64,000 nucleotides of DNA, taken from NCBI GenBank assembly GCA_006503475.1, contig RSEH01000167.1, positions 44,282 to 108,281 of the forward strand, read 5' to 3'. The notes beneath the pieces are model-generated. The model saw nothing but the letters and a program-made list of their open reading frames with translations, did no database searches and had not been told where the DNA came from. This stretch comes from Stentor roeselii (taxonomy: Eukaryota; Ciliophora; Heterotrichea; Heterotrichida; Stentoridae). Position 1 is the stretch's first letter; the number at the start of each line of letters is the position of its first letter. Shown piece after piece: positions 55,222-62,498 of this stretch. Position numbers and translations under genes: made by a program.

Positions 55222-55630
55222 TTAATGTCGGAAGTAAGGTCTTGAGCCAATTTCAGGTAATCCTGCCCTGCTTCGCTTTTCTTTGATCCAATGATCCCAG
55301 TACCCATCTTTGTTATCATAGAAAGTGATAGAAGAAGGAATCGGTCCATCACTATTTTCATGATTTTTTGTATCCCAGTCAATAGTCCTGTCATAAATCT
55401 TGAAATAAATATCTTCTTCTTCAATATTTTCAGTACGTTCACCTAATGCTTTTTTAAGTTGTTGATTCGGATTTAAATGAAATTGTTCTATATCAATTTC
55501 GTCATCCTCGTTCTGGAGTTTCTGAATTCTTTCTTCTTCTTCTTTCCTTCTTTTTTCTTGTTCAGCCTTTAATGTTGCATCTTCTTGATTTTCTTCTTCA
55601 TCACTATCTTCACTTCCACTTCTATCATCG

Positions 55631-55677
<47 letters not shown>

Positions 55678-57861
55678 GGTATATTCTTCAGAGTCTGAAA
55701 CAGAAAAGTCACTTTTTTCACCATCTGTACTTTCTTCATCTGATATAAGAGATTGTCCATAAGTTATGTCATTCGGATTATCTTCTTCAACATCTTCTTC
55801 ATATTCCTCATCTTCATCATCATCATCCTCACTATCTTCATCGATTGATCTTTTAAAGCTATCACGCTTACGACTAATATGATCATCTTCTTCATCTTTT
55901 TCATCTTCATCATCTGTACCTTCTAATGCTTCATCATCTTGAATTTCTTCTTCAGTTTTCCATAGTTGTCTCTTGTTGACTTCATATTTTATTTTCTTAA
56001 AAGAATGCAATTCTTTGATAGTTCCAGTTGTTTTATCTATTTCAATTTTTACATCAGGCCCTACTTCTTCATTTTTATCTTCTTCTTCAATTTCCTGAAT
56101 TCTAGCTTCGTTAAACTCTTTTTTTGCATCTTTATCAGGTATATAATCGTCAGGTAGTGTTAAATGACTGGCACCAGCTTCAATTTCAAAAATTTGGTTA
56201 GTGGTTAAATTTTCATGCTTATGACGATATTTCTTCCACTTGGAATTTCCAGTAGTTCCCTCGATTAAATCACGAACTTCACTAGGCTTTTCATTATAAA
56301 TCTGATCCAAGACATCTTTTAACTTTTCATCATTTTTCTCTGCAATATTCGGGAATTTCTTAATTATTTCTTCAGGGATTTTCCCGTCTATAACATTGAT
56401 CTCACCAACTTTAATAAGAAAATTTTCTTCAGGATTTTCCTTCTTCCTTCTCTCAACTTCTTCGAGGATTTTTGGGTCTATGTCACTAGCTGTGTACTCT
56501 TCTGACCCTTCAATGTGAATCTCTCCTTCAGACCGTACTTCATTTGTATTTATCTCAGGGTTCTCAGTTTCGCCTTCAGAATATTTTTCTAAATTAGTTG
56601 AGACTTTCGAGTCTGTAGGGAAATATTCTTGCAAAAACTTGTACTTTTCAGGGTTTTTCGGGGTAAGGAAATAACAAAGTCTGTTTAATATAAGTTCTTT
56701 TCTTTTTCTCGATACCTTCGGGTGATACTTCTCTAAAATTATGGTCACGTTTTGAATAAGTCTGTTATTTTTATGGTAATTTGGAAGAGTTTCGTAATAA
56801 TTGTAGATACTTGGAAGTTTTACTGGAACCCAAGGTTCATTTGAAGCGAATTTATTGTCAGCTTCTCTTAATTTCTTTAAACTTGTAATGACTTCAGGAA
56901 AGGATTTAAAGACTGACCAAGACTCGATGTCTTTATTGAAACCGACAAGGTCAGGCCTGAGTACAGGAGGAGTAGGAGGTAAATCATTAGCTTTCTTTAA
57001 AGGTGTATAGAAGTTCATCTGGCCTGCATTGCGATTTTTCATTAAACTGATCATAGGGAAACCTTTCGACATATTGATATTATCATAAGTCCTTTCAATT
57101 GATTCTTCGATTAAGTTGGTGTGAAAAGCTGTATTTCTTTGGTTGGTTCCTTTATTTTTTGGAGAATTTAAGATTGAGTATCTGTCTCTCAAGAGTCCTT
57201 TATATACTTGAAAATAATTAATGGGTCTTTCTTGGCTGATGTAAAGAGGCTCCCACTCACCACCATCAAGACTTTTGATATCTTCAGGCTGATTCTTGAG
57301 ATACCAGCTACACCAATGATTGATGTCGACAATCTTGTCGTCTTTAGTTTTTCGAGGGTAAAACTTTAACATGGTTGAGTCGTAAGGTTTCAATGCATAT
57401 TCAGGCACTTCTTGTAATTTCATTAGTATTCCATAGTTTCTATTTGACCTTACTTGGTTTAAGATGTAGTTCCTTATATCTGTACCTGTAATCATTACAT
57501 CATCTTTAGTCATCGGCTCGTTAAAGTAATGAACACCTTCTTTGGGAATTGTTATCATACCCTTTATGAATTTTTCGTAGGACACTTTACGGTATTTGAT
57601 CTGCCTGTCAACCTCGTTGTTTTCAGCTAACCGGTTCCGGAAATCTTCTGGGATGTCTAAGTAGTTCTCTGGTAATTGACTTATGAAATTTACTCTTGCT
57701 TTTAAGTCAATTTTTTCCTCGGCCGATTGTTTTAAAGAAAATTTCACTTTTGTTGAGGGCTTTGAGGCTTCTTGCATCTTTGGTTTTGGAGTCAGCTGTA
57801 GATTCAGAAGCGCTTCTGATAAGTAGTCTTTTGTTAGCTGGCGACGAAGCAGTCTCAACAT
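55222..57861 (-). CDS. Large acidic protein, possibly mitochondrial
   Basis: 879 aa. Starts MLRLLRRQLTKDYLSEALL, which resembles a matrix-targeting presequence. The first 430 residues are globular with aromatic-rich motifs (EGVHYFNEPMTKDD, WCSWYLKNQPEDIKSLDGGEWEP). The middle is strongly acidic, including 18-residue poly-Asp. The last 80 residues contain WDTKNHE and DGYWDHWIKEKRSRAGLPEIG. I do not recognise it; a ciliate-specific mitoribosome or respiratory-complex subunit is one possibility, unproven. The same-strand neighbours are 20 bp and 255 bp away. Confidence 0.75.
55627..55676 (-). repeat. (GAT)n trinucleotide microsatellite, poly-Asp
   Basis: A nearly perfect ATC/GAT run of about 17 triplets encodes uninterrupted aspartate in the acidic gene. 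Long runs of this kind are prone to length change. Confidence 0.9.
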
Positions 57862-58116
57862 TTTTATGATTTGAGTGGTTTAGGATGTGGAAGGTGCTTA
57901 GAGGTTAAAATTTTAGAGTTATTTGGTTTGATGATTCGATTAGGTTAAGGATTTTTTGAAAATTTACCTGAGTTGAAAATTGTGTCAAAATGTTTAATTA
58001 TTTGAATTATTTATGATGATAATTAGTCTTAATCATAATCAACATCGAATTCCTAAAATTCTTAAAAAATCCCTTAATATCCTGAAAATCCCAGAAAATT
58101 AATATATATCTAAATT
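57862..58116. other. AT-rich intergenic region with CCTAAAATT-like repeats
   Basis: 255 bp. The stretch 58040-58100 repeats short variants of AATTCCTAAAATTCTTAAAAAATCCC, like the motif at 40794-40890. Confidence 0.45.
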
Positions 58117-59988
58117 CTACGAAAGTTTAAAGTACTTAGAGCATATATCCTTAGCCGAGTCTTTCGAGACACTATTCTGCGCCTTGATTTTACTTAAAAT
58201 CCATTTAGGAATCCTTGTTCTTTTCTGACTGCTATCAAACCGTCTATCAACAAAAACAACAGCCTGCTGCAAATCAGAACATTTAACACCCTGAGAAATG
58301 GCCCAAACCGCATCCCTCATCGCATCATAATTCAAATAATCCGCTTCATCAACATTCAAATGTTTTTTCAAATAAACAAGTCTAGCCCGGAGCACCCTGC
58401 TAAGGACTCCTCCCTGAGGCACTCCAAAAACCAAAGAGCACCTTACAAACTTTCCATACTGATTCATCATCTCCAGACACTTTTCACGAGCAACAGTAAA
58501 AAAAACAGCGCCTCTTCCACATTCACAAGCTTTTTTGAAGTTTTTCATCAATTTCTGCTCATTTTCCGTATTTTCAATAAAAACGAGTTTATTTTCCAAA
58601 AGTCTTAAAATAAGTCCACTTTCATTCCACTTGACGACATAACTCATCAAAGTTTTCCAATCAGGAAAAACAGCGACGAGTCCATCAGGGACAACTTCAC
58701 TTAAATCAAGCAGGACTTCTCCGTAGTTCCTGATAACTCCGTCATCTACCTTTTCATCTGACTTTGTCGAAAGAAACAACTGGTCAGAGCCTCGGGTGAG
58801 TACTAAAGAGCAGATATCAGGGACTTCTGGGAAATAAAAGACTTTTGATTCGATTCCCACGAAGGATGCAGAGACTTGGCTGTAGGAAGACGTGAAAAGG
58901 ACTTTGCAATTAAAGGACTTCAACAGAGATCCTAAAAATACACTCGGGTCTTGACAGGAAAGCTGAAGAATTGGACTGCGCACTGAGGCCTGCTCTGAAT
59001 GAGGCTCGTATATCACGCTGTAGATCTCAGGGTGTAACGCGGATAAGGAAAGGAACTCGCAGATTGTGTATAAGGCAAAAAAGTTCTCGCTTTTTAATAT
59101 GTTTATTGAGAAAAAAGTGATAAGTGAACAGAAAATTGATGAGGATATTGAAAGAGACTCTCTTGGGACTAACCAGGTCTTGAAGAGATTGTAGTGGAAA
59201 TAGTGACAGCTGTTTATTGATGGCTCTAAACCTCGTAGGGATGAACGGATGAAAACGCAAACGGTTTTTAAAAGCTTTAAGAAGAACTCTGGACGACGCA
59301 AGTTCCCGGGGACTGGCTTTTGAAGGATTTCGTTTGAGGTTGAGATACCTCTTGGGAATGTGTCTGGGGATAGGGTTGATGAGAGTGCAGAGGTTTTTAA
59401 GGTGTGGAGGTAGGAAGTGAAGGAGGCGTCTGATTCGCATCTTTTGGTTGATATTAGGTCAGACATTTCTTGGATTCCTCTGATTGCTGCTGATACTAAC
59501 TTTAAGTCGATGTTTATACTTAAGTGGTCAATCGCCCTCACATCAAGTTGCAAAGCATCTTCTAAAATCAACAAAAAATCCTTCTGTAGCAAATCCTTTC
59601 CCTTTCTAAACAAAAACGCCTGTGTACAAACAATAATCTGTGCCTCCTTCCCCAAATCCTGTACTGTTCCCAGTCCATCCTGATCCTTTCCTTGAATCCT
59701 CATCTTTTCAACCCCACTAATAACCACTCCAACACTTCTTTCATTCAAATCAGCCGACAAAAAAACAGCAGGAACATCAGGCCTAGCCTTAAAAATTTTC
59801 CTAATAATTTTTTTGCAAGTAAAAACATCAGTCCCCACAACAATCATCTTACAAAACTCTTTCCCAACAAACCTTTCAAAAATTTCTAAAAACATTCGAG
59901 TTTTTTCATTCAAATTAGGATTAGTTTCCACAAAAATCGCACATTTATTAGAAATCGACGAGTTCACCATACCAAAGAGCTCTTCCAT
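58117..59988 (-). CDS. XPD/Rad3-fold pseudo-helicase (catalytic motifs lost)
   Basis: 623 aa. C-terminal residues 390-623 follow the second half of XPD (ERCC2, TFIIH helicase): RGSDQLFLSTK, VIRNYGEVLLDLSEVVPDGL, WNESGLILRLLENKLVFIE, KACECGRGAVFFTVAR, VFGVPQGGVLSRVLRARLVY, YDAMRDAV, VFVDRRF, RIPKWILSK. The matching catalytic sites are gone: Walker A region NLNEKT (residues 25-30) has no glycine-rich GTGKT; DEAH becomes EDALQLD (near 143); motif V REKCLEMMNQ lacks GIDF; motif VI WAISQGVKCSD lacks Q-x(2)-GR-x-IR. The iron-sulfur cysteine block also appears shortened. The frame is intact, so it is not a pseudogene. Reads as a dead paralogue, perhaps a structural partner in TFIIH or unrelated. Confidence 0.82.
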   Translation of the reverse strand: MEELFGMVNSSISNKCAIFVETNPNLNEKTRMFLEIFERFVGKEFCKMIVVGTDVFTCKKIIRKIFKARPDVPAVFLSADLNERSVGVVISGVEKMRIQGKDQDGLGTVQDLGKEAQIIVCTQAFLFRKGKDLLQKDFLLILEDALQLDVRAIDHLSINIDLKLVSAAIRGIQEMSDLISTKRCESDASFTSYLHTLKTSALSSTLSPDTFPRGISTSNEILQKPVPGNLRRPEFFLKLLKTVCVFIRSSLRGLEPSINSCHYFHYNLFKTWLVPRESLSISSSIFCSLITFFSINILKSENFFALYTICEFLSLSALHPEIYSVIYEPHSEQASVRSPILQLSCQDPSVFLGSLLKSFNCKVLFTSSYSQVSASFVGIESKVFYFPEVPDICSLVLTRGSDQLFLSTKSDEKVDDGVIRNYGEVLLDLSEVVPDGLVAVFPDWKTLMSYVVKWNESGLILRLLENKLVFIENTENEQKLMKNFKKACECGRGAVFFTVAREKCLEMMNQYGKFVRCSLVFGVPQGGVLSRVLRARLVYLKKHLNVDEADYLNYDAMRDAVWAISQGVKCSDLQQAVVFVDRRFDSSQKRTRIPKWILSKIKAQNSVSKDSAKDICSKYFKLS

Positions 59989-60007
59989 ACTAAAATATAA
60001 AAATACA

Positions 60008-61015
60008 CTAAAAACAAAAGAACCTCATTCGACAGCATCCAACATTTTCATTCAAATCGTCATACAAAATCGTTTTCACCTCTTCTTCAGTCACTTTCTT
60101 CGTCGGAGCTTCAACGTAAAGTTCATCTGAATTCAACTCGAAGTCAGGGAAAAACTGTCGCGGGAACCTTGGAGTTATCGACAAGTTTCTCTGTAAAATC
60201 CCTCCAGAAGCAGTCCCTTGATGCAAAGGAGTCGTCACAATCGCCCTTTCCTCAACCCTCGCTGATTTACTACAACTACTGAAGTCAGTATTGTCCTCCT
60301 CTACTCGTAACTCGATACTTTCCAAACAAATTCTTATTTCAGCTATTCTTTCTTCAGCGCAAAGAATTTCTGAGTTGATTTCAGAGATTTTACATAATAA
60401 AGCGTTTTTTTTCTTGAATTTCTCAGGAAAGGATAACTCGACTGACCTTAAAGTGTCTTTTTTTAGTTTGAATTCAACTGAAAAGTTTATCCAAGATGCA
60501 AGGATTTGGACTCCTTTGCAGAAATTTTTTAGTTTTGATTGAATACTTGACTGGTTCTTCCAGATGTCGAGTAATTCATTTATTTGCTCGTCTGATAATG
60601 ACTGAGGTTGGAGATTTGTCATCAGACTTTTAAGCGGGGCGAAGTTTTTAGTCACTGCTTTGAATGAAGTCCAGCTTCTGTCTTTTTGCTCGATCATTAA
60701 TAAGAACTTATCTGCCAGGTTTAGTAAAGTTTCATTTGGTTTACGGATTTTTGGAATCTCTGCACATACTTCTTTTGTAAACTGCCAGTTAGTGTCTTTG
60801 AACCCTTCAAGGGCTCTGTTGGTCTCTTGAGTAAAAAAGTCAATCTGCTGTTTTATCCTCAAAAGATTTGATTTAGTTTTTTCTAATTTTCCTTGAGTCT
60901 TTTTTAGAACTTTCCGCTGGGCGTATGAATTTCTGTCAAGTTCCAAGAGTTCCTTTTTAAGCACTGTTATTGCATGAAACTCCAAATGGCTTCCTGGACG
61001 ATTTGAGTCCATCAT
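60008..61015 (-). CDS. Stand-alone dynein-stalk-like coiled-coil protein
   Basis: 335 aa. An antiparallel-looking coiled coil (residues 15-75 and about 195-255) encloses a helical tip: IRKPNETLLNLADKFLLMI, DRSWTSFKAVTKNFAPLK, LSDEQINELLDIW, FCKGVQILASWINFSVEF. The order and spacing recall the microtubule-binding stalk of dynein heavy chains (the KPP loop, the W-x(2)-hydrophobic loop, the CKGLxxWVxAM helix), without any AAA domain. The tail is acidic and low-complexity. May bind microtubules. Judgement is by pattern; an unrelated coiled coil is possible. Its start is 46 bp from the divergent gene, its stop 19 bp before the XPD-like start. Confidence 0.6.
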   Translation of the reverse strand: MMDSNRPGSHLEFHAITVLKKELLELDRNSYAQRKVLKKTQGKLEKTKSNLLRIKQQIDFFTQETNRALEGFKDTNWQFTKEVCAEIPKIRKPNETLLNLADKFLLMIEQKDRSWTSFKAVTKNFAPLKSLMTNLQPQSLSDEQINELLDIWKNQSSIQSKLKNFCKGVQILASWINFSVEFKLKKDTLRSVELSFPEKFKKKNALLCKISEINSEILCAEERIAEIRICLESIELRVEEDNTDFSSCSKSARVEERAIVTTPLHQGTASGGILQRNLSITPRFPRQFFPDFELNSDELYVEAPTKKVTEEEVKTILYDDLNENVGCCRMRFFCF

Positions 61016-61061
61016 GTGGGAAGTTTATATTGGAATCAGTTTTTCAATTGTTTTCAAATAA

Positions 61062-62498
61062 ATGCTTGTTACTAAAGAATTTGCAGCGTTGGCCTCTGCT
61101 TCAAAGGATAAGAAAATGTGTGGAAATTGTTCTGTGTTCTCAATGAAACTACTTCAGCTTGAAGAAAGTTTAAAAGGATATGAAGAAAATCTCGCAAAAG
61201 CTCAGATTGAACTTGAACACTCGAAAGTCATTCAAGAACAACAGAGACTACTTTTTGATAAAAGAGTTGAAGACTTTAGAACGGCTTCTATGAAAGATGG
61301 GCAGGAGGGTATGAAAGATAAGGAAGTTTCTGAACTTAAACAAGAAGTTAGGCAGAGGGATCAACTCTTAGCGAAAGCGAAGAAATTGGTTTCTGTTCTT
61401 AGTGAAGAACTCGCTGAAAAGACTCGTGAAGTCAAAAACTTAAAACAAAATAATTTCGAACAAGTCTTACAAGAAAATGAAAAACTTAAAGAAAAAATCA
61501 AAGATCTCGAAAATGTAAAAGAAGCTCAAAAAAACGATTCTTTCAGTTTCGATACTGAAAGTTTCGGTTCAAAAGTTGTGAAATCTCACGAAAAAGACTA
61601 TCAAAAACTCGAAAATGACTTAATTTTTATGAGCAACCAACTTGACTACACCCAGACGACTCTGAAAAATGTTTGTGATGAAAACTCTCGTCTAAAGGAA
61701 ATTCTTACAAATGTTGAGTCAAAACTAGCTTCTTCTATTCAAGAAAATTTAAATTTTGCTGAAAAGGTGCAAAATCTTGAACAGATTCTTCATGAAAGTC
61801 AAAAAAGACAGTATCAGGTGGAAAACGAAATGCAAGAATTGGTACGCTCGAATCGTTCTTCTTTGAGTAAAGATGACTTTTCTAAACTTATATCACAAAG
61901 AGAGTCATTTTTTAATGAACTGACTTCTCAGATGTTACGAAAAACTCATCGAAGACATCGACATAGTTCTCATGTTAGAGATATGTATGAGTTTGTTGAA
62001 GCTGTTAAAACTGAAGTTAAATCAGGAAAAGAGCCGAATTCTAATCTCAGTAAGGAGTCTTTAACGATATTTAAAGATTTTCAGTGCTGGTACAGGACCC
62101 ATAAATTCGACCCAAAAAGAAAATTTTTATCAGAAATCCTTCTGATCCTCCTCACTAACACTAAAGGAAAAGTGAAAAGCCACCTCGAAACACTCGCAAA
62201 TGATTTTCCAGACCTTGAATACGAGCAAATTGAAGAAAAACTAATAAAATCCTTGAAAATCGCTCTTATTTTTAAGGTTGAGGTCTTAGCAAAAATAAAA
62301 GAAATGTCAGCAGGATTGAAACTTGGTATCGAAAGCATCGAAATAGTTTGCAGCAAAATATTAGAGCTGAAGCTCAGCGTGAAAGAAGACGACATGGAAA
62401 AAATAGTTGATCTCGCTCTTGAGTTTTTGAAAGGATTTGCAAAAGAAAGAGTTGCGGACTATGAGAACTCTTGTGAAGTGATGAATATGGTTCTGTAA
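61062..62498 (+). CDS. Coiled-coil protein, unknown
   Basis: 478 aa. Coiled coil from about residue 30 to 270 (QLEESLKGYEENLAKAQIEL, LKQEVRQRDQLLAKAKKL), preceded by a CxxC (KMCGNCSVF). The C-terminal 200 residues are helical and less charged (FYRTHKFDPKRKFLSEILLILL, KSHLETLANDFPDLEYEQIEE), looking like a globular bundle. Cytoskeletal or basal-body role possible; not recognised. Confidence 0.78.
   Translation: MLVTKEFAALASASKDKKMCGNCSVFSMKLLQLEESLKGYEENLAKAQIELEHSKVIQEQQRLLFDKRVEDFRTASMKDGQEGMKDKEVSELKQEVRQRDQLLAKAKKLVSVLSEELAEKTREVKNLKQNNFEQVLQENEKLKEKIKDLENVKEAQKNDSFSFDTESFGSKVVKSHEKDYQKLENDLIFMSNQLDYTQTTLKNVCDENSRLKEILTNVESKLASSIQENLNFAEKVQNLEQILHESQKRQYQVENEMQELVRSNRSSLSKDDFSKLISQRESFFNELTSQMLRKTHRRHRHSSHVRDMYEFVEAVKTEVKSGKEPNSNLSKESLTIFKDFQCWYRTHKFDPKRKFLSEILLILLTNTKGKVKSHLETLANDFPDLEYEQIEEKLIKSLKIALIFKVEVLAKIKEMSAGLKLGIESIEIVCSKILELKLSVKEDDMEKIVDLALEFLKGFAKERVADYENSCEVMNMVL

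Follow-up and report, generated by a model that had tools for sequence, protein, structure and literature searches.

The only XPD gene that we found in the genome of Stentor roeselii encodes an intact protein from which the motifs of the helicase motor have gone, and we consider it likely that this protein has become a non-catalytic subunit of TFIIH, a scaffold joining p44 to MAT1/CDK7 that outlived the loss of nucleotide excision repair. The gene occupies positions 58117–59988 on the minus strand of the window, by which we mean the whole stretch of 64,000 nucleotides analysed here, and forms a complete open reading frame of 623 amino acids running from ATG to TAG. A scaffold role in TFIIH had been proposed in an initial annotation of this DNA, and it stands as the most economical reading of the results below.

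XPD ancestry

By its database matches and its place in a tree, the window protein is an ortholog of eukaryotic XPD (ERCC2/Rad3). In a phmmer search against PDB sequences, residues 131–615 of the 623 matched human XPD (E 1.5e-60, 208.6 bits); yeast Rad3 was matched at E 1.9e-59 and FANCJ weakly, at E 0.077 and 14.7 bits. Pfam sees only Helicase_C_2 in the protein, and the NCBI rad3 model TIGR00604 gives it 200.5 bits, under the model cut-off of 246.95. A RecA2 tree was built from 18 sequences, comprising the window protein, human XPD, human FANCJ, the five FANCJ-like proteins of the genome and ten archaeal sequences. In it the window protein and human XPD split off from the FANCJ-type and archaeal XPD sequences with a support of 100, in a sampling that holds one eukaryotic XPD and no DDX11 or RTEL1 and in which long-branch effects are possible; the branch of the window protein is very long, at about 1.55 substitutions per site.

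Relatives for the alignment came from a scan of genome contigs with motif V–VI segments, which returned 15 loci, of which 12 have archaeal titles and 3 bacterial ones. Ten of them were taken; the five left out (L048, L052, L053, L055 and L056) were near-duplicates or bacterial forms, and among the ten, L043 and L044 are near-duplicates of each other and L047 and L051 are similar. A scan of genome contigs with three FANCJ-like paralogs gave no relatives, and neither did two scans of viral contigs.

The AlphaFold model of the protein, made with 16 sequences (FANCJ-like and archaeal rows, no eukaryotic XPD), reached a pLDDT of 64.7 and a pTM of 0.64, against a pLDDT of 40.3 with 6 sequences. The titles of the entries behind its best 15 Foldseek matches name TFIIH, transcription pre-initiation, excision-repair or XPD complexes, with E values from 1.4e-32 to 8.2e-19 and a TM by query of 0.57–0.66. 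Those of the matched chains that are also among the phmmer matches are XPD/Rad3; the rmsd of 8.4–14.2 means that the model reproduces the domain arrangement poorly. Profile search, tree and structure matches thus agree with the XPD fold and ancestry first read from the letters. The similarity had been placed in the C-terminal half; it is indeed present there, but it is not confined to that half and covers the Arch domain plus RecA2.

Loss of the helicase motifs and cluster ligands

As aligned, the window protein is without Walker A, DEAH and motifs Ia, III, V and VI of an active XPD-type SF2 helicase. The erosion of Walker A, DEAH, V and VI had been noted in the initial annotation and was confirmed by the alignments, which add the loss of Ia and III. 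Where Walker A should give the P-loop PSGTGKT, the protein reads NPNLNEKT (residues 23–30; 59899–59922, on the minus strand like all features of the gene given below). This placement was made by eye and is supported by a strand at 15–20 and a helix at 23–40 predicted in the AlphaFold model; automatic alignments put the first 40 residues differently and none yields a P-loop, and residues 7–41 contain no glycine, hence no P-loop glycine. The SRT of motif Ia is lost. According to the alignments, EDAL (143–146; 59551–59562) takes the place of DEAH in motif II, TSSYSQ (366–371; 58876–58893) that of SGTLSP in motif III, REKCLEMMNQY (501–511; 58456–58488) that of RGKVSEGIDFV in motif V and WAISQGVKC (562–570; 58279–58305) that of QCVGRAIRG in motif VI, and the changes in motifs V and VI sit in gap-free blocks.

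The window protein retains 9 of the 44 columns that are near-invariant among 15 relatives, and two of the nine (Cys46 and Cys58) are probably misaligned, whereas each of the relatives, left out in turn under a nearly identical column rule, retains 37–44 of 44–45. Within RecA2, 20 of the 49 columns common to human XPD and three paralogs are retained, against 67 of 210 other columns, so that retention of the columns needed by the motor barely exceeds that of the others.

A remnant of the 4Fe-4S domain is placed at about residues 74–117 (59638–59769), with the cluster cysteines absent as a set. Human Cys116 lies opposite Val, and Cys134, 155 and 190 fall in gaps; between residue 46 and motif II the protein has just two cysteines, Cys58 and Cys121, and the cluster requires four ligands. 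On this alignment, the four-cysteine ligand set of the cluster is missing. Human XPD has about 70 residues more between motif Ia and motif II than the window protein. Tyr158, Phe161, Tyr192, Phe193 and Arg196, which belong to the pore and lesion pocket of human XPD, are opposite gaps, and the model has a pLDDT below 50 over residues 78–110.

XPD, TFIIH and excision repair in the genome

The window gene looks like the only XPD of the genome. We searched the whole assembly (44.4 Mb in 522 contigs, completeness not given) with the rad3 model, scoring the best first-look candidates only (7 of 7 scored), and at E 0.01 obtained no more than the window gene and five FANCJ-like loci, and no second or canonical XPD. 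The proposal that this is a second XPD-like subunit finds no canonical partner in the 44.4 Mb and does not hold up. The FANCJ-like iron-sulfur helicases form an expanded family: three loci lie on contigs C72, C60 and C30, within 7 kb of the contig starts, and two are neighbours on C135. Walker A, DE[AS]H and motifs V and VI are all present in four of these loci, and in the fifth (C135, 67–69 kb) the open frame begins after Walker A, a short upstream piece being broken by TGA.

The search for other TFIIH subunits covered XPB, p44, p52, p34 and MAT1, and all five were found. The XPB scores 902.4 bits and contains GSGKT, RED, GDTSIDLP and QRLGRILR; its motif II reads DEVQ, where human XPB presumably has DEVH. 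By contrast with these five of five, none of the four repair-specific factors searched for (XPF, ERCC1, XPC and XPG) was found as such. No XPF ortholog appeared in the genome, the sole match of the XPF model, at 24.5 bits, being a protein with an ERCC4 domain and a layout like that of MUS81. ERCC1 and XPC had no match in the genome, each with a model that also matched no control genome. No XPG ortholog was found among eight model matches in five places, the best at 93.1 bits where the model cut-off is 1204.4; the four places examined align with FEN1-type proteins and are classed by us as FEN1-like or EXO1-like, and the fifth, on C95, scores 45.5 bits. A photolyase domain was likewise not found in the genome by a search that was positive in 8 of 14 control genomes. 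The missing photolyase, together with the excision nucleases not found, suggests little UV repair.

These counts bear on the possibility that the window gene is a diverged second paralog and that a canonical, active XPD lies in an unassembled or missed part of the genome. We regard it as improbable. The rad3 model caught even this eroded copy at 200 bits along with the five FANCJ-like loci, with all seven candidates scored, and a normal XPD should by our reasoning score far higher; the 522 contigs are of unstated completeness and the scoring of first-look candidates favours such an oversight, yet XPB, p52, p44, p34 and MAT1 were all found, and a single unassembled locus would leave it unexplained that XPF, ERCC1, XPC and XPG were not found either.

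Contacts with p44 and MAT1

The regions of XPD that contact p44 are residues 531–533, 563–565, 589–592, 612–616 and 718–725, according to the part of PMC6422496 available, which also gives the p44 residues paired with XPD Arg722 and Arg592. In the window protein, the equivalents of the first four loops are, by alignment, VPD (433–435; 58684–58692), which is identical, ENK (465–467; 58588–58596), with two of three residues identical, ECGR (489–492; 58513–58524), with three of four identical and Arg492 corresponding to Arg592, and GKFVR (512–516; 58441–58455), where Arg616 alone of the five is identical and an alternative alignment sets Lys opposite it. Together, 9 of the 15 positions have the human residue, as do 87 of 259 across RecA2 (hypergeometric P 0.028). 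This contrast is suggestive, not strong, since C72 and C60, paralogs that bear a motor, also agree with human XPD at 7 of the 15 each. In the AlphaFold model, a C-terminal helix (609–621; 58126–58164) would correspond to the helix with which human XPD binds p44, around Arg722. If the phmmer alignment, which ends at human residue 716, continues gap-free, Lys621 falls opposite Arg722; for this placement we assumed the human XPD letters past 716. The p44 of the genome retains the DLRPxR and SLSxxD segments of yeast Ssl1, which we take, on human p44 numbering, to hold the residues paired with XPD Arg722 and Arg592.

The Arch domain, the MAT1/CAK platform of XPD, is placed at about residues 155–337 (58978–59526) from a match of residues 217–347 to the 197-residue XPD chain 6tun_A (phmmer E 5.8e-7). 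Its EILQKPVPGNLRRPEFF block is conserved with human, and model confidence is low over much of the region (block pLDDT 39–45 over 201–230 and 29–43 over 251–300). The MAT1 of the genome matches 6tun_D, the MAT1 chain of that XPD–MAT1 entry, at E 5.7e-6, and the MAT1 chain 28jm_H over residues 3–151 at E 3.7e-16. We infer that the window protein would bind p44 and MAT1.

A protein of XPD ancestry could instead have taken a job outside TFIIH, for example as a free anchor of the CDK7 kinase or in another complex, its catalytic parts having been lost in some other way. The very long branch, of about 1.55 substitutions per site, and a p44 surface retained in part only are in keeping with such a change of partners, but we judge it unlikely, as p44 is present with its XPD-facing segments retained (PMC6422496, in the part available; human numbering presumed) and the p44 contacts are better retained than the rest of RecA2. 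A role in the CIA complex, the other possibility raised in the initial annotation, makes little sense and is unlikely because the 4Fe-4S cluster ligands are gone.

Reading frame and coding signal

The 623-codon frame is intact as first described. The other five frames of 58117–59988 hold 22–53 stops, and the chance that such a frame stays open, at the stop probability of 0.065 per random codon given by base composition, is about 10^-18. The codon score of the ORF, 0.136, exceeds that of shuffled copies (–0.155, sd 0.028) and those of its own other two sense frames and of the antisense frame tested. Ten neighbouring genes, which are also the training set, score higher (0.197–0.343), and the middle third of the ORF, at –0.038, is near background. 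The last two figures are what would speak for a decaying pseudogene that is open by chance. This we hold to be very unlikely, given that about 1.5 changes per site have left no stop or frameshift in 623 codons against a chance of 10^-18, and that the changes are non-random, the blocks VIRNYG, VVPDG and SRVLRARLVYL being retained while the motifs were lost. We argue for purifying selection on the ORF from its open frame only.

GT-AG joins are not in excess, at 64 against 92–135 in four control pairs (raw counts, uncorrected for dinucleotide frequency). Several GT-AG stretches of 16–76 bases at 60.0 kb could join an upstream 335-aa ORF in frame, and no XPD motif was seen in that ORF. A six-frame pattern search of 56801–62100 gave 0 matches to DE[AS]H, SEG[ILV][DNE] and Q..GR..R; SRT occurred twice, both times on the plus strand and in neither case in an XPD-like context, and the loose pattern G..GK[ST] matched twice, at 56969 on the plus strand and at 59873 on the minus strand. 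The latter, GLLGKS, is out of frame, between nearby stops and without XPD-like context. Hidden introns or other frames masking normal motifs were rejected on these counts and this search, and an altered genetic code was rejected because TAA, TAG and TGA all terminate genes in the genome. A faulty gene model, with normal motifs concealed by introns, a frameshift or an altered code, is therefore scarcely credible, for the joinable stretches at 60.0 kb and GLLGKS, which alone point that way, are set against the low GT-AG count, an upstream ORF and six frames empty of the XPD patterns, motif V and VI changes in gap-free blocks and three working stop codons.

Discussion

The enzymatic activities of XPD are dispensable for transcription in the laboratory (Kuper et al., 2014, PMC4182028). 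In the available part of that paper, K48R XPD supports transcription like wild type and C134S XPD at 65%, and the p44-contact variant R722W at 20%. In the window protein the repair-only parts appear to be gone and the assembly parts recognisable, matching this division, and the protein is best read as a natural counterpart of the laboratory finding. It would resemble K48R (Walker A) and C134S (4Fe-4S) XPD, as that part presents them, in being motor-dead and structurally competent; those variants, however, carry single engineered changes, whereas here every motif is gone, and the setting differs in that this genome yields no XPF, ERCC1, XPC or XPG ortholog.

The scaffold reading suggests the following course. 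Nucleotide excision repair would have been lost in the lineage first, thereby freeing from selection the only step that needs the XPD motor, and the motor would then have been lost. XPD would have been retained since its RecA2 would still hold p44 and its Arch domain MAT1 and thereby the CDK7 kinase module; TFIIH would rely on XPB for promoter opening and would still be able to phosphorylate RNA polymerase II. The lineage appears to have lost nucleotide excision repair, and loss of repair presumably preceded loss of the motor; the XPF, XPC, XPG and ERCC1 orthologs that were not found would supply the cause for the erosion of XPD. We lean, by a little, toward a wider version, in which the lineage dropped nucleotide excision repair altogether along with photolyase, leaving a transcription-only TFIIH in which XPD, stripped of motor and cluster, would bracket p44 and the CDK7 kinase module together.

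With human and yeast XPD/ERCC2/Rad3 the window protein shares its ancestry and RecA2 core, a recognisable Arch domain, the larger part of the p44-contact loops as aligned and a predicted C-terminal helix, and the partner genes XPB, p44, p52, p34 and MAT1 are also in the genome. It differs from them in having no P-loop, DEAH or motifs Ia, III, V and VI and in the deletion of most of the 4Fe-4S domain, and it falls 137 residues short of the 760 in XPD chain 29vf_1. Trypanosoma brucei XPD is similar in that it is reported to appear dedicated to transcription and not to repair, but the available text of PMC4138998 does not mention motif loss, and CSB, XPG, XPC and DDB were studied there. Paramecium offers a ciliate case with a divergent TFIIH, and the study describing it points out that XPD has a structural function in transcription (PMC12716044); in the excerpt at hand, its XPD is called a clear ortholog and motif loss is not stated, and only XPD, XPB, p44 and p52 are identified, to which the present genome adds MAT1 and p34. 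In the open-licence literature, as far as its texts were accessible (the latest part from 2024 on only), we met no report of a naturally motor-less XPD; in the accessible open-licence texts we likewise met none of excision-repair loss in ciliates or protists.

If the scaffold reading is correct, evolution and not mutation has split the repair-motor and structural roles of XPD, and the protein would reveal which XPD surfaces transcription really needs. Promoter opening by TFIIH would have to run without any XPD motor, and the organism would be predicted to be unable to excise UV or bulky lesions.

Other genes and base composition

Elsewhere in the genome, contig C51 carries a FEN1-like ORF (L037:1111-2253, plus strand), a 381-aa open frame in which active-site-type acidic residues are replaced. 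The FEN1 of contig C421 reads VCDAS, VFDG, GEAEAE, SEDMD and LGSDY where the C51 ORF reads ACNAT, VFSK, ENAEAQ, SEDSE and LGTKK, and we take the acidic residues replaced to be those of the FEN1 active site. This is apparently a second open but putatively inactive enzyme of DNA metabolism in the genome. In another FEN1-like gene, L034 (contig C505, about 123.6–125.3 kb), a long spacer separates the N and I regions, and a TAA occurs in frame between them.

Next to the XPD-like gene, at 55222–57861 on the minus strand, lies a gene for an 879-aa protein with an mS31-like stretch at residues 280–401 and a very acidic C-terminal part with D runs. The best of its three matches is mS31 of 6z1p, which we take to be a Tetrahymena entry, and the others are an engineered protein and an acidic-tail match. 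Another neighbour is closest to cGMP-dependent kinases, its four best chains being presumably apicomplexan, and genes for relatives of CFAP65, DZIP1 and ARMC9, all of them proteins of cilia, also lie in the window. Finally, the keto (G+T) strand skew flips within genes in blocks of several hundred bases, for example at 58051–58800, 58951–59550 and 59551–60300, and exceeds sampling noise, with a standard deviation of 0.073 per 300 bp against a binomial 0.029.
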